Source: Actinomycetota bacterium
GTDB lineage: Bacteria > Actinomycetota > Actinomycetes > Nanopelagicales > Nanopelagicaceae
Direction of reading: 5' to 3'
Assembly (NCBI GenBank): GCA_009701305.1
Contig: WLKK01000005.1
Span: 1 to 35,213 of the forward strand
DNA length: 35,213 nt
The number at the start of each line of letters is the position of its first letter. The first letter of the stretch is position 1. The position numbers were made by a program, and so were the translations under genes. The notes beneath the pieces were generated by a model. It ran no database searches. It was not told where the DNA came from and was given only the letters and a program-made list of their open reading frames with translations. This document shows positions 6,889-13,524 of the stretch, in pieces.

Positions 6889-7045
6889 CGGAGGGTAAGA
6901 TTTTGATAAATCTAAAATAATTTCTCTCCCTTTGATAGAAGAATCGAATATAGGGTTTGATCTTATCTAATTTATATTGATAAATATTATGACCTTTTAA
7001 GTGACGTAAGGACCCTGAATTAAAATGCAATTTATCGAATGAAAG

Positions 7046-7118
7046 TGGGCCCTGACGGGCTCGAACCGTCGACCCACGGATTAAAAGTCCGTTGCTCTAC
7101 CGACTGAGCTAAAGGCCC
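7046..7118 (-). tRNA. tRNA-Lys (anticodon TTT)
   Basis: GGGCCTTTAGCTCAGTCGGTAGAGCAACGGACTTTTAATCCGTGGGTCGACGGTTCGAGCCCGTCAGGGCCCA folds into a full cloverleaf; acceptor GGGCCTT/AGGGCCC. Confidence 0.97.
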
Positions 7119-7185
7119 CAATTGTGCCCAAGAAATCTTAAAGATCCCTCGCGCGCTGGTGAAGTCTAGACCAGAAATCTCCCAC

Positions 7186-9252
7186 TCATTTCTTCTTGTA
7201 CCCAGTCGGGCATATAGGGTCTACGGCACTTACTTTCTTAGTTACAGCCCCTTTGCCGCATGAAATCGTCTTAGTCTCAGATTTAGCTGCTGTTGATTTC
7301 TTTGGCATTGAGTAGCCAGAATTATTTTTTAAGAAAGTGGCGATTTGGGGAATTGTCAACTCTGCCCCAACTACGGAGAAGTGATCATCATCTCCATACA
7401 ACCACCCTTTATCAGAGTATCTACTGCAAACTCCCTTTTTACAAAAAAGTGAATCAATACTTATGGTAGATATTAAATTGCTTCTTGCCCAGTTTGCTAA
7501 TAAGTCAGAAGCATTCTTATCCACTGTTTGCATTTTTGATTGCTGAAAACTCTTTGGTGGTTTATACGGAGACATAACTATTGGTCGCGCAATCATAAAA
7601 TCCTTCTCATCCGGGAAAATAGGATTATTCTCGATAAGTAATATGTTTGGAACTATCGATCGGAGAGTCGATAGGGCATCTCTTAAATCATCTTGAGATG
7701 AATCAGAATATACAAACTGAGAAACTATAATCGCGTACGGTTTATTCTCCTCAACCCATTTTTTCATCGAATTGTTAATATCAATACATTTGTCTAAAAC
7801 TTGCTCGGGAATACTTCGTTGAAACTGGACATGGCAACCGGCATGAGCCCAAGTTACGGCATTCCACTTCGTGCTCCGCGCAGCATCAACAACCGCCTGT
7901 GAAATATGAAGGGCATGTGAATCACCTATCAAAAGTATTGTCTTGGTAGCGCCTGTAGTTTTATAAACACATGGTGGACCCCATTGTAAATCCTTAACAC
8001 ATTTAGGATCTGATGGGGTTGCGTATGTCGGTTGCTGAATATTTCTATCTAGTCCCCAATATTGCGCTTTTTTGCCAATATCCATTGATATGAAAAGGAA
8101 TAAGGGAAGAACGAGGGTTAGAACTATGGCAGCCGAGATAGTTTTGAAACCACTGGCGATACTCCTGCCTCTGCCTCGAAATCTATTTTCTATTTTTGAA
8201 TAACTTAAAGCCCCAAGCAATATTGAGGCAACCACAGCTATTGCTGATTGAACTATGCGATTTTCACCCTTCCCGATTTGTGTCACGGGTGAGTATTTTG
8301 CAATACATAGCAAAGGCATGTGGACTAAGTAAATCGAGTACGACCGATCACCAACCCATTCAAGTTTCTTAATTAGAAAATCCGGAAGTACATCAAGAGA
8401 CTTAAATAAAATTAGAATCACTGCAAACAAACTAGCGAGTATTGAACTGACCTTAAGGTTCATGTGTAAGGGGCCGAATAGAATCATGACCACAGCAATT
8501 ACGGTCAGTAAATGAATACCTTTTGGGATATTAATTGCGCGATTTTGGTATCGATCTAACAAGAGGAATGCAAGGCCACCTGCGGTAAATTGCCAGATCC
8601 TATCAATCGGCGAATAGAAAGAAATTTGAGATGCGAGCTGAATTCCTGCCCGAGAATATATAGGTTCTAAGATTGCTGGAAATTGAAATGAAACAAAACT
8701 TATTGCTGAAATGCACCCAAGTACCAATGCTGTAGTTTTCTTAATTCTCCTGCGATTATGAAGAAAAAGCATCAAAACAACTGGCAGAAAGATATAGATT
8801 TGTTCTTCCACGGACAGTGACCAAGTATGAACAAGTGGATTTGGATTGGGCGAGAAATAGTCCCCTGAATATTTATAGGCACCGACATTGCCTGCAAGAA
8901 GTAGTGTTGCAATACCCTGTCTGTATACCCTCTGATGATCGGCAATTGGCCCAAGCAAAAAGATTGTTAACGCTGAAATAGTAAGCGTCACTGCTAAGGC
9001 GGGTGCTAGGCGATAGAAACGTGTCTTGTAAAAATATCTTAAATTAGATAAACGCCCCCCACCGTTGACTTGGTCAGTAAATATTCGCAAGATCAAAGGT
9101 GTGACTACGAAGCCAGAGATTACAAAAAATACATCCACCCCAAGATAGCCAAGTGGGAAGTAACTCTCGTTGGCATGGAATAGGACAACAGCCAGTACGG
9201 CTAGACCTCTAAGAACTTGGATGTCTCTGCGGTATTTTGTGTCACTGAACAT
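7186..9252 (-). CDS. OafA/YrhL-like acyltransferase 3 family protein with C-terminal SGNH domain and a Lys-rich tail tag
   Basis: YRRDIQVLRGLAVLAVVLFHANESYFPLGYLGVDVFFVISGFV (acyltransferase 3); TILLIGDSHALHIS and DDDHFS (SGNH); ends TISCGKGAVTKKVSAVDPICPTGYKKK. Confidence 0.92.
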   Translation of the reverse strand: MFSDTKYRRDIQVLRGLAVLAVVLFHANESYFPLGYLGVDVFFVISGFVVTPLILRIFTDQVNGGGRLSNLRYFYKTRFYRLAPALAVTLTISALTIFLLGPIADHQRVYRQGIATLLLAGNVGAYKYSGDYFSPNPNPLVHTWSLSVEEQIYIFLPVVLMLFLHNRRRIKKTTALVLGCISAISFVSFQFPAILEPIYSRAGIQLASQISFYSPIDRIWQFTAGGLAFLLLDRYQNRAINIPKGIHLLTVIAVVMILFGPLHMNLKVSSILASLFAVILILFKSLDVLPDFLIKKLEWVGDRSYSIYLVHMPLLCIAKYSPVTQIGKGENRIVQSAIAVVASILLGALSYSKIENRFRGRGRSIASGFKTISAAIVLTLVLPLFLFISMDIGKKAQYWGLDRNIQQPTYATPSDPKCVKDLQWGPPCVYKTTGATKTILLIGDSHALHISQAVVDAARSTKWNAVTWAHAGCHVQFQRSIPEQVLDKCIDINNSMKKWVEENKPYAIIVSQFVYSDSSQDDLRDALSTLRSIVPNILLIENNPIFPDEKDFMIARPIVMSPYKPPKSFQQSKMQTVDKNASDLLANWARSNLISTISIDSLFCKKGVCSRYSDKGWLYGDDDHFSVVGAELTIPQIATFLKNNSGYSMPKKSTAAKSETKTISCGKGAVTKKVSAVDPICPTGYKKK

Positions 9253-9257
9253 GAAAG

Positions 9258-9267
9258 CCCCCCCCCC
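9258..9267 (-). repeat. G10 homopolymer 5 nt upstream of the acyltransferase start codon
   Basis: catgaaagCCCCCCCCCCgcaaatc on the + strand; sits at the Shine-Dalgarno position of the minus-strand gene. Confidence 0.85.
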
Positions 9268-9483
9268 GCAAATCGAGCGGCATTAGGTAGTTATCGTATT
9301 GCTTGCGCTCACTATTTATTCTTAACTGATGAAATTTTCGTGCCACTGCTGTGCCACAATTTTTAGCTTGAAGGGAGAACCAATGGACACAAACAGATGC
9401 CCTAACTTGGCGAAATTGCGCTCAAATTAGGGCATTCAAGGTTTAGGGGTGGATAATATTGGTGTTCGGGGAAAATTGAAGCA

Positions 9484-9524
9484 GGATTAAAAGTCCGTTG
9501 CTCTACCGACTGAGCTAAAGGCCC
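9484..9524 (-). pseudogene. tRNA-Lys 5' fragment (nt 1-41)
   Basis: ggattaaaagtccgttgctctaccgactgagctaaaggccc is identical to 7078-7118; the remaining 3' part of the tRNA is absent. Confidence 0.88.
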
Positions 9525-9591
9525 CAATTGCGCTCAAGGAATCTTGAAGAGCCCTCGCGCGCTGGTGAAGTCTAGACCAGAAATCTCCTAC

Positions 9592-11307
9592 TTATTTCTT
9601 CTTATATCCAGCCGGACATTTAGGGGTAACAGCGGTTACTTTCTTGACCAACTTGCCTTTAATGCATGTAATGGTGGTTTTCTTAACTACGGGTTTAGTG
9701 ATTACGGCTGGCTTTGGATTAATCACAGGCGTTTGTATCAAAGTCTTGGGAGTAGTAGTAATTTTTACCGGGACGATGTCGCTAAATGCAACAGAACTTT
9801 GCGAGACTATCCAATTTTTAACTCGTAGATATTTGTCGATGTCAGTTGTCTGCGCAATGTAATCTGGCTGAGTGGCCCCGGTGATGTCAGCACAAGTGGC
9901 AACATCGAATGAAACACAATTTTGCCATTGATAGCCAAATTTTGGAGCCTCGGCACCAACCCATGTTCCAGGAGTTGCTGACCATTTCTGCCCGACTTGT
10001 GCAAAGCCAATAACAAATGGTGCTGTTTGCAATTGAGTGGCATACATAATTTTACTGGTGTTTGCACTAACAATTGTTCCGACTCCAACACGGTTGGTTG
10101 ATTTTACGGTGACCCTAATAAAATTATTTACATCATCAAAATTTAGAGTGTAAGAAGTTTTTGTGTCACCTTTTAAATCTATGCACTCTACTTGGCTCAT
10201 TGCTGAGCATCTTTGCCATTGATAGTTCAGCACTCCGATAGGAGTGCCAGTCCATCCAGTCGAAGAAACAGTTAGTACCTGTCGATCTTTTACAATGCCA
10301 GAAATTACGGGAAGGGCACTTGTATTCGGGACTGATGTCCCTAATACAACAGTCGTTAATGCACTTGGAGTCCCACGAAGGCCTAAGTTGTTGGTAGCAG
10401 TCACCATTACCCTGATAAATTTACCAATATCTACAGTTAACAATGTGTACGTTGCCTGTAATGCCCCCGAAATTGGAGTACACGTTGACAATTCTATAGT
10501 TGTGCAACTCTGCCACTGATAGGTATAGGTTGCCACTGGGAAAGCGTTATAAGTACCAGTAGTAGAGGTGAGCATTTCATCGACAATTGCTAATCCTGAT
10601 ATCTCTGGAGAAGTGATAAGAGTTGGTTCAGCATTTAATCTGGAAGTTGCGTCTGAAATGGATTCCGCAGTTAAATTATTAGCAGTAGCAACTACTGTTA
10701 CTACACCACGGATATACCTTCCAATTTCTGAAACAGAGATTGTATAAGTTGAATTTGTTGCTGATGGGATATCGGTGCAACTGCTAATTTCTAATGAAGC
10801 GCATCGCTGCCATTTGTAACTGTACATCGGAGTTACTACATCAATCCAAGTACCGGAGGTAAGCGTCAGAGTTGAACCAAGCTGTGCGACTCCAGTTATT
10901 ACTGGGATTACTGTTGCAAGCGGTTGAACTAGCACTCTTCCTGAAATCGCAGTTGCCGCAGTAGTTCCTCCGCCTGCAGATAAAGCGGTCACCTGAAGTT
11001 GCAAATAATTTCCACCATCAGCTGCAACTAATTTTAACGCAGAAGTTGTTGCGCCAGTAATTTGCGCGCAACTTACCAACGCCGCAGTAGAGCAGCGATA
11101 CCACTGATAACTAATACTCGATGGCGTAACGTCCCAAATGCCTGATCCGGCAGTAACAGTTTGACCGACAGCCAGAGTGCCGGCGATTGTTGGCAATGCC
11201 GTATTTGTTGGACCAGCCGCGAGCGCGCCACTTGGAGTCATAAAAGTTGCCATAAGAGTCAAAGCGATAGGCTTTGACATGGAGCGAATTAATTGACGCA
11301 ATTTCAT
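9592..11307 (-). CDS. Secreted protein with about five Ig-like repeats and a C-terminal Lys-rich tag
   Basis: N-terminal signal peptide (MKLRQLIRSMSKPIALTLMATFMTPSGALAAG); repeated YQWxRC...C..I.GAT..Y...D.G.Y.RV.VTA units; ends TITCIKGKLVKKVTAVTPKCPAGYKKK. Confidence 0.85.
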   Translation of the reverse strand: MKLRQLIRSMSKPIALTLMATFMTPSGALAAGPTNTALPTIAGTLAVGQTVTAGSGIWDVTPSSISYQWYRCSTAALVSCAQITGATTSALKLVAADGGNYLQLQVTALSAGGGTTAATAISGRVLVQPLATVIPVITGVAQLGSTLTLTSGTWIDVVTPMYSYKWQRCASLEISSCTDIPSATNSTYTISVSEIGRYIRGVVTVVATANNLTAESISDATSRLNAEPTLITSPEISGLAIVDEMLTSTTGTYNAFPVATYTYQWQSCTTIELSTCTPISGALQATYTLLTVDIGKFIRVMVTATNNLGLRGTPSALTTVVLGTSVPNTSALPVISGIVKDRQVLTVSSTGWTGTPIGVLNYQWQRCSAMSQVECIDLKGDTKTSYTLNFDDVNNFIRVTVKSTNRVGVGTIVSANTSKIMYATQLQTAPFVIGFAQVGQKWSATPGTWVGAEAPKFGYQWQNCVSFDVATCADITGATQPDYIAQTTDIDKYLRVKNWIVSQSSVAFSDIVPVKITTTPKTLIQTPVINPKPAVITKPVVKKTTITCIKGKLVKKVTAVTPKCPAGYKKK

Positions 11308-11337
11308 ATCTTAATTATCGCTGTTAAGAGCCAAAAA

Positions 11338-11565
11338 TTAGCGGAGTGAACCGCCTTCAAAGGTGGCTCTTTGCAATTTATCCCGATTCGCAATTGCTAC
11401 GACGTCGCCCGATGGAGGGATTACATAAATGAAAGGAAGATTGGTGATATCTCCTTCGCGCAGGGCTCCAGAAAGCCCGAGGACAAACTCATCGTTAACG
11501 ATGGGAGCAGCAGGACGGACTGATCCAATGACAGCCGACAAGAACCTGGAAGATATTTGTCCCAA
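11338..11565 (-). pseudogene. Truncated duplicate of the sua5/tsaC 3' end
   Basis: AAPIVNDEFVLGLSGALREGDITNLPFIYVIPPSGDVVAIANRDKLQRATFEGGSLR aligns with the C-terminus of the 12514-13524 product (about 42 of 57 residues by eye); the N-terminal catalytic domain is missing. Confidence 0.88.
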
Positions 11566-11566
11566 C

Positions 11567-12340
11567 TTATCTTTCTATTTTTTTAAGTAACACAAAATAC
11601 CAATTTAGCAGTAGTGGTCCCGAAATTTGTAATCTTTTATAATCCAAACTTCCATTTACTATTTCCGTAAAAGTGCCCATTATGTCTTTATTTTTGGGTT
11701 TAGGAACATCTATATCAATCTCAAATCGATCTGAAGTAACAACTTCGTAACCATAATCATTTGCTAATCTATTTAGTTTTTTTAATGAATACACATTATA
11801 AAAAGTTTTGCGAGGTTTACAATGTTCGAAAACTTCAATTCGAGCAGAAATATCTCCTTCGTAAAATAGACTACTTAGCCCAATCCAGTTAGGTTTTATC
11901 ATTTCGAAAATTTGCTTCATGGGCGTCTGGATTTCTGGTAGCCAGCTTAAGGTTTGTATACTTATGACTCCATCAACCCCCCCCCACTTGTTTCCTAAAT
12001 CGAACCAATCTCCCGTATCAAAATCGAGGTTTTTTAACTTGAAGTTTTTTGAAGTTTCTTTAGCTTTAATAATTAAATCACTAGATTGATCTACTCCCAC
12101 AAAATTAGTACTCGGAAATTTACTAGCTAAGAAAAAGGTTGCAGCACCAGCACCCGCTCCTAGATCGACAACTTTTTTTGAATTTGCTAATTCACGTTTA
12201 AAAAAATCATAAAATGCCTTCGTACTTTGTTTCGGATCGTCCCACTGCTTAATGTGGTATTCCATTGATACGGGATCAATCCATGATGTTTGGCCAATAT
12301 TGGGATCTACCCACTCAGAATTAATCTCTTTACTTCCCAA
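11567..12340 (-). CDS. Class I SAM-dependent methyltransferase
   Basis: VVDLGAGAGAATFFLASKFPSTNFVGVDQS (SAM-binding motif I/II); ends just upstream of the sua5 fragment. Confidence 0.85.
   Translation of the reverse strand: MGSKEINSEWVDPNIGQTSWIDPVSMEYHIKQWDDPKQSTKAFYDFFKRELANSKKVVDLGAGAGAATFFLASKFPSTNFVGVDQSSDLIIKAKETSKNFKLKNLDFDTGDWFDLGNKWGGVDGVISIQTLSWLPEIQTPMKQIFEMIKPNWIGLSSLFYEGDISARIEVFEHCKPRKTFYNVYSLKKLNRLANDYGYEVVTSDRFEIDIDVPKPKNKDIMGTFTEIVNGSLDYKRLQISGPLLLNWYFVLLKKIER
11977..11985 (-). repeat. G9 homopolymer inside the methyltransferase coding sequence
   Basis: + strand catcaaCCCCCCCCCacttg; encodes W-G-G-V (TGG GGG GGG GTT) in the open frame. Confidence 0.85.
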
Positions 12341-12513
12341 ACCGTAATCCTTTCGTAACGGATCAAATAACTTAAGATTTTTTTATCAGTTTATTTCATA
12401 GGAGTTACAATCAAAATATAATGTATCAGGATATGTGCGCTTTTCGTGAAAACTGCTTAGGGAAGTTGGCATAATTTTGTGACTAATTGCAGATTACTGT
12501 TTATTGTCAATAG

Positions 12514-13524
12514 TTAGCGGAGTGAACCGCCTTCAAAGGCTGCTCTTTGCAATCTATCCCTAATTGCAATCGCCACTCCATCCCCTGCTGGTGGGATCAC
12601 ATAAATGGCCGGAAGGTTTTTACGGTCGCCTTCGCGCAACGCTTCATAGAGCCCGCTCGCATACTCATCATCACTGATCGGCGCAGCTAGCCTAATCGCT
12701 CCATCAGGAGTTGGGTGATTCGCTGCTGCGATAAAACCCACACCGGCAATACATGCAACTACTGGGTTTATCGGATCTAATAAAAATACTTTTGCTTTTG
12801 GTGCGTAATGAGCATCGAGCAAGCCAGATGCGCGAGTTTGCGATTTTGAACTTTCAATTTTTAAGCCTGTTGTTTTCTCAATCATTTCAGCAGTGATTGC
12901 GCCGGGGCGAAGTATCCGTGGAGAATCTTCAAGACATTCAATAATCGTTGATTCGACTCCAACCAGAGATGGCCCACCATCAAGAATTACATCCCGATGC
13001 ACATCTAAAAATTCACCAATCTCCTCTTTTACCGCTTGCGCTGTTGTGGGCGAAATCGCACCGAAGCGATTCGCACTAGGAGCGGCAATCCCGCCAGCAA
13101 ATTCACGCAATAACGCCAATGCAATTGGATTGGCTGGAATACGAATCCCGACGCTATCTTGCCCGCCAGTAATGAAATCTTTTGCCTTCTCTGATCTTTT
13201 TAAAATCAAAGTCATCGGCCCTGGCCAAAAATCGCGGGCTAATGCAATTGCATAATCTGGAATATCAATTGCCCACTGATCTAATTGTGACAATTGCCCA
13301 ATATGAACTATTAATGGATGGTCGGCAGGGCGGCCTTTCACTCTATATATATGCGCAACTGCAGATTCATTTGTGGCATCTGCCCCGAGTCCATAAACCG
13401 TCTCCGTTGGGAATGCCACTAATGCCCCGAAATGTAAGGAGGCGGCGGCATTAGAGATGACGTCTGCGGTGCAATTAGATAGCAGGATTGAATGCTTAGC
13501 ACCTTCGGAACTTTTGGAACTCAC
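12514..13524 (-). CDS. sua5: L-threonylcarbamoyladenylate synthase (Sua5/YrdC/YwlC family)
   Basis: GALVAFPTETVYGLGADATNESAVAHIYRVKGRPADHPLIVHI; SVGIRIPANPIALALL; APSANRFGAISPTTA; GPSLVGVESTIIE; C-terminal Sua5 domain. Confidence 0.95.
   Translation of the reverse strand: MSSKSSEGAKHSILLSNCTADVISNAAASLHFGALVAFPTETVYGLGADATNESAVAHIYRVKGRPADHPLIVHIGQLSQLDQWAIDIPDYAIALARDFWPGPMTLILKRSEKAKDFITGGQDSVGIRIPANPIALALLREFAGGIAAPSANRFGAISPTTAQAVKEEIGEFLDVHRDVILDGGPSLVGVESTIIECLEDSPRILRPGAITAEMIEKTTGLKIESSKSQTRASGLLDAHYAPKAKVFLLDPINPVVACIAGVGFIAAANHPTPDGAIRLAAPISDDEYASGLYEALREGDRKNLPAIYVIPPAGDGVAIAIRDRLQRAAFEGGSLR

Follow-up and report, generated by a model that had tools for sequence, protein, structure and literature searches.

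A nine-guanine tract inside a cargo methyltransferase gene as a candidate on/off switch in the Nanopelagicaceae

Gene content between Sua5 and tRNA-Lys

The window, by which we mean the whole stretch of 35,213 nucleotides analysed, is one entire contig of a 1.48-Mb draft genome (110 contigs, 88% complete). Genome size, GC and gene content suggest an acI-type (Nanopelagicaceae-like) family, probably from fresh water. Comparison of 16 genomes of the family revealed a fixed frame of tRNA-Phe, tRNA-Asp, tRNA-Glu, SIMPL and Sua5, followed by a variable part and then by tRNA-Lys. The content between Sua5 and tRNA-Lys changes from genome to genome, and the length varies between about 60 bp and about 8 kb (family loci L166-L181); the corresponding interval here is 7045-13524. 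Judged by gene order, this interval is a variable-content insertion site conserved across the family, with the methyltransferase and acyltransferase genes described below as its cargo. The features of the interval are as follows.

7045..7118, minus strand: tRNA-Lys (TTT), from ARAGORN and synteny; one fixed edge of the variable interval
7186..9252, minus strand: AT3-SGNH membrane acyltransferase (OafA/SucT-like), 688 aa; Pfam PF01757 and PF19040
9258..9267, minus strand: G10 tract, 5 nt upstream of the acyltransferase ATG; likely a Shine-Dalgarno element
9484..9524, minus strand: remnant of tRNA-Lys, keeping the 5′ half to just beyond the anticodon; part of the direct repeat 9484-9645/7078-7239 (89%)
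9592..11307 (start probably 11280), minus strand: Ig-like repeat protein, probably surface-located, with a CPAGYKKK tail; weak Ig matches
11338..11541, minus strand: remnant of the C-terminal 67 codons of Sua5, between the methyltransferase and Ig-like genes; 44/67 residues identical to the intact tail
11321-11511/12497-12687: direct repeat, duplicate of the Sua5 tail
11567..12340, minus strand: class I SAM-dependent methyltransferase, 257 aa, TTG start; Pfam Methyltransf_31/25/12; in frame (ON) as assembled
11977..11985, minus strand: G9 homopolymeric tract, codons 119-122 (W-G-G-V) of the methyltransferase gene
12514..13524, minus strand: Sua5 threonylcarbamoyl-AMP synthase, long-form, intact; PF01300 and PF03481, and synteny; the other fixed edge

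The Pfam matches of the methyltransferase lie above the gathering scores, and the protein has the Rossmann fold, the DxGxGxG motif I and the acidic end of beta-2 that define class I; its invariant residues are D59, G61, G63, G65, D84 and D123. The fold was predicted with a mean pLDDT of 67, and the PDB matches agree with class I. At 34% GC, compared with 48% for Sua5, the gene is foreign-looking. It is absent from the four other genomes of the genus, and no close relative was found in the genus, the 296 family genomes, genome_contigs, IMG/VR, phages or plasmids; matches in a sample of the phylum reached only 25-36%.

The acyltransferase scored 98.7 bits with PF01757 and 97.7 bits with PF19040, giving an AT3 domain with a C-terminal SGNH domain; its match to NCBIfam SucT was below the cut-off. 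The first-pass annotation had described two long G-runs, 2.7 kb apart, in putative surface-modification genes. The distance is correct, but the G10 tract lies 5′ of the acyltransferase gene rather than inside it. A part in surface modification is plausible for the acyltransferase and unproven for the methyltransferase, whose predicted fold and relatives suggest no more than a class I enzyme of generic small-molecule type. The G10 tract is likely to be the ribosome-binding site of the acyltransferase, able to pair with the anti-Shine-Dalgarno sequence, and a change in its length would alter the spacing and strength of translation initiation and not the reading frame. The acyltransferase (7186-7230) and the Ig-like protein (9592-9640) have in common a CPxGYKKK C-terminal tail, which may serve to anchor or sort both proteins. 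A 47% identical orthologue of the Ig-like protein lies directly behind Sua5 in another family genome (G040).

The acyltransferase gene is bounded by tRNA-Lys on one side and on the other by the duplicated segment that carries the 5′ half of tRNA-Lys, a direct repeat that suggests tRNA-directed insertion of this gene. Because a decayed copy of the Sua5 tail and half of tRNA-Lys are both present as duplicates, the two tract-associated genes probably came in by edge-duplicating events, which would have involved homologous or tRNA-directed recombination.

The G9 tract and changes in its length

On the plus strand, positions 11977-11985 read CCCCCCCCC (C9), corresponding to G9 on the minus, coding strand. 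The codons are AAC AAG TGG GGG GGG GTT GAT (NKWGGVD), in frame within the open reading frame 11567-12340. Sequence and codons are thus as the first-pass annotation gave them, and its expectation that gain or loss of one G would frameshift the gene was also borne out. With −2, −1, +1 or +2 G the product is 121-126 aa long, compared with 257 aa for G9, and out-of-frame translation stops within about 5 codons. The number of codons after the tract had been put at about 120; about 135 remain. The truncated product stops before beta-strand 4 and so lacks the invariant D123 as well as the C-terminal half of the Rossmann domain. The tract therefore has two attributes of translational-type SSR contingency loci, namely a long in-frame G/C tract (about 8 or more) and truncation of the product upon gain or loss of a unit. 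A frame-specific coding signal is present on either side of the tract, so that the methyltransferase gene is intact as assembled, and the flanks are ordinary coding DNA.

Homopolymer tracts can make polymerase or ribosome slip, and programmed transcriptional or ribosomal slippage at the G9 tract could set dosage or give two products with the DNA unchanged. The out-of-frame stops within 5 codons would suit such an arrangement, but there is no second product of any length and the 0 frame already yields the full enzyme, and we regard programmed slippage as very improbable. A role of the tract as an internal ribosome-binding site was rejected, as the downstream open reading frame (TTG ATG GAG TCA TAA) is 4 codons long.

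Distant homologues vary at the W-G-G site, and D123 directly behind it is invariant. Protein constraint therefore does not force two GGG codons at this site, and a protein motif as the cause of the tract was rejected. GGG makes up about 11% of glycine codons in the coding DNA of the family, and with family codon use a given W-G-G-V peptide yields G9 with a probability of about 0.013.

Long G tracts in the window, the genome and the family

Apart from G9 and G10, the window contains one G/C run of 6 and otherwise runs of 5 or fewer, confirming the earlier remark that no further run exceeds 6. Markov simulations of order 1-4, trained on the window itself, gave 0.02-0.03 expected G/C runs of at least nine per 35-kb window, and two were seen. 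The 1.48-Mb genome has 59 G runs of six or more bases. Three of these have eight or more and two have nine or more, the latter both in the window, 2.7 kb apart. With the usual five-fold decay per base, the 59 runs predict about two G runs of at least eight and about 0.4 of at least nine. The genome count of two is therefore mildly unusual, and the closeness of the two tracts, which has a chance of about 0.4% from position alone, is the stranger part. These counts led us to reject the idea that the genome is rich in G tracts as in Campylobacter. Many equally long and randomly placed G-runs, which the first-pass annotation had named as evidence against a contingency locus, were not found in the genome, and in coding sequences of the family such tracts are strongly under-represented, as described below.

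The third-longest G run of the genome is a G8 (G000:C78:10836-10843, L011). It lies in frame, at codons 22-24, in the gene for DruM, which is the DNA cytosine methyltransferase in a Druantia defence system of type II (DruK, DruE2, DruF2, DruM2). The L-G-G-E motif at this site is common in C5 methyltransferases, so this G8 may be due to chance.

All 296 family genomes (375 Mb) were searched for G runs of at least nine, and the context of every match was read. Matches at contig ends (G036, G155:C32, G188, G241, G264 and G274), which are artefact-like G/C runs of 10-25, were left out as possible assembly artefacts. Such runs, and the error-prone nature of homopolymers, would be in keeping with an assembly or sequencing artefact at the G9 tract too, the true length or sequence being different in a metagenome-assembled genome of draft contigs. 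However, the tract lies 12 kb inside a 35-kb contig and is flanked by ordinary coding DNA, and a length of nine keeps the frame open over 257 codons; an artefact is thus unlikely.

After removal of contig edges, 46 tracts were left outside the focal genome, only two of them in predicted coding sequences, each of which has an uncertain start. One is a G19 close to the beginning of a response regulator, and the other is a C10 at codon 21 in a short open reading frame for DUF4160. By comparison, 712/885 G4 runs lie in coding sequences (P = 3e-27). Shuffling of synonymous codons in 364 kb of coding DNA from the family gave an expectation of 0.75 G/C runs of at least nine per Mb of coding DNA, or about 250 for the family if 91% of the 375 Mb is coding. 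The share of 2/46 and the expectation of about 250 together indicate that the family purges long G tracts from its genes, G runs of at least nine being depleted about 100-fold in coding sequences. Among the 296 genomes, the focal G9 is the only tract deep inside a secure gene, the two doubtful cases above being N-terminal.

The remaining family tracts are nearly all intergenic, many of them directly 5′ of a start codon. A G-sense tract at most 12 nt upstream of a start was found for 11 of the 44 non-coding tracts, compared with 13/173 G4 runs (P = 0.002). The start-proximal share of intergenic tracts of at least nine did not differ from that of G5-6 runs (P = 0.45), and it therefore appears that the intergenic tracts are in part G-rich Shine-Dalgarno sites. 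Tracts of G9-G19 recur 5′ of LuxR/GerE-type regulator genes in genomes G051, G059, G060, G098, G124, G285 and G269 (loci L052, L055/L122, L056/L124, L074/L123, L075/L133, L063, L066, L094 and L090), and on the basis of this recurrence they are possibly a class of phase-variable regulators. Three species have tracts of G10, G13 and G9 at 4-7 nt 5′ of genes for Caa3_CtaG, which acts in cytochrome oxidase assembly (L043, L044, L077). Other long C/G tracts (L046, L047, L080) comprise a C9 at −1 of a rhodopsin-like gene, one about 90 nt 5′ of the gene for a nickel superoxide dismutase, and a G14 before a UbiA prenyltransferase gene that lies about 2 kb beyond the tRNA-Lys edge.

Tract instability and the case for possible switching

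The Pfam models MutS_V (MutS domain V) and NucS_C were run against five genomes of the genus (G000-G004); neither gave a match, appropriate controls were positive, and the incompleteness of the drafts (78-89% complete) leaves some doubt about absence for each genome and less for all five. The genus may be without both known mismatch repair systems. As MutS and NucS were not found, slippage should go uncorrected; NucS itself does not correct indels of 1-2 nt (PMC11551767). Tract lengths were also compared between orthologous intergenic loci. The tract upstream of CtaG is G10 in G007 and G13 in G013, and the one before a LuxR gene has lengths of G11 (G059) and G9 (G051), in both cases with near-identical flanks. 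Tracts of this family do change length between related species.

We consider it about evenly probable, and marginally favour, that the G9 tract is a slippage-driven, reversible on/off locus for translational phase variation of the methyltransferase. Replication slippage would add or remove Gs in the tract. Nine Gs would leave the frame open and give the 257-aa enzyme (ON, the assembled state), and 7, 8, 10 or 11 would bring in a stop within about 5 codons and leave a 121-126-aa fragment lacking the second half of the SAM-binding domain (OFF). The acyltransferase, with G10 in its putative ribosome-binding site, and the methyltransferase, with G9, could vary independently between cells. The tract, its frame, the truncation, its rarity, the cargo position and the lack of matches to MutS and NucS are observations, and the slippage rate, the mixture of ON and OFF in nature, the selection or benefit and the substrate are matters that we infer.

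Switching is the best explanation because long tracts are depleted within genes, MutS and NucS were not found and orthologous tract lengths differ. In favour of it, an intact gene keeps a G9 although G runs of at least nine are normally purged from genes; against it, the genome is not enriched for G tracts. Set against codon-choice expectation, the G9 tract combines a 1.3% chance for W-G-G-V with about 100-fold depletion in family coding sequences for G/C runs of at least nine, in a genome without G-tract enrichment. The near-absence of tracts inside coding sequences also argues that coding-region switches are not the usual device of the family.

The main rival, not far behind switching in probability, is a recent mutational accident. 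By this reading GGG GGG arose by chance behind TGG, and the tract has not yet been purged from a dispensable, AT-rich gene that was acquired recently. The tract would then slip and inactivate the gene, with no selection for switching, and the gene would be on its way out. A cargo gene of 34% GC that the four other genomes of the genus lack, with decayed duplicate pieces on its flanks, fits this description; the probability of about 0.013 makes chance possible, and the G-run counts of the genome follow geometric decay up to G8. On the other hand, the sole two such long runs of the genome lie in or at neighbouring cargo genes, and the open reading frame is unbroken, with a coding signal before and after the tract. 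We regard an accident of this kind as a serious possibility, though one we would put at rather less than even.

Poly-G phase variation has been described mostly in host-associated bacteria, and a literature search found no paper joining 'Nanopelagicales' with 'phase variation'. In Campylobacter, SAM-methyltransferase genes with variable G7-13 tracts are among the common phase-variable genes (PMC6321876). UbiE_3 and Cj0170 (PhasomeIt) resemble the present case in having a G8-13 tract associated with a SAM-methyltransferase gene, where slippage causes frame loss and truncates the enzyme (PMC6321876). Campylobacter differs in its many G tracts, mostly in open reading frames and of demonstrated length variation, whereas here there are two runs of at least nine, one of them in an open reading frame, known from assembled sequence. 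Cutibacterium (Propionibacterium) acnes, also an actinobacterium, has 54 polymorphic tracts across 90 strains, almost all G/C and two thirds of them upstream of genes (PMC4746626), as in the family studied; its variation is clade-linked across the 90 strains, whereas here one genome represents each species and tracts are far fewer. In M. tuberculosis, glpK and ESX-1 genes are reported to be switched through homopolymers (PMC6667613, PMC11898584), an actinobacterial on/off switching by small homopolymer indels that escape NucS (PMC11551767). M. tuberculosis is a host-adapted pathogen with NucS present and switching documented, whereas neither NucS nor MutS was found in the present genus, where switching is a proposal. 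Orsi et al. argue that homopolymers in coding sequences are a device of general use, though their case concerns runs of A and T (PMC2831843).

For the family as a whole, we tentatively propose, at well short of even confidence, that these small-genome, probably free-living freshwater actinobacteria, which may lack MutS and NucS, purge long G tracts from their genes and keep a few as population-level expression switches, mainly upstream of regulators and of envelope or accessory genes, with one inside a cargo methyltransferase gene. The family-wide depletion offers a clean route to real switches, since almost any in-gene G run of at least nine is an outlier. A case in an environmental small-genome actinobacterium without known mismatch repair would carry poly-G phase variation into the plankton, with pressure from phages and grazers on surface structures as a possible driving force.
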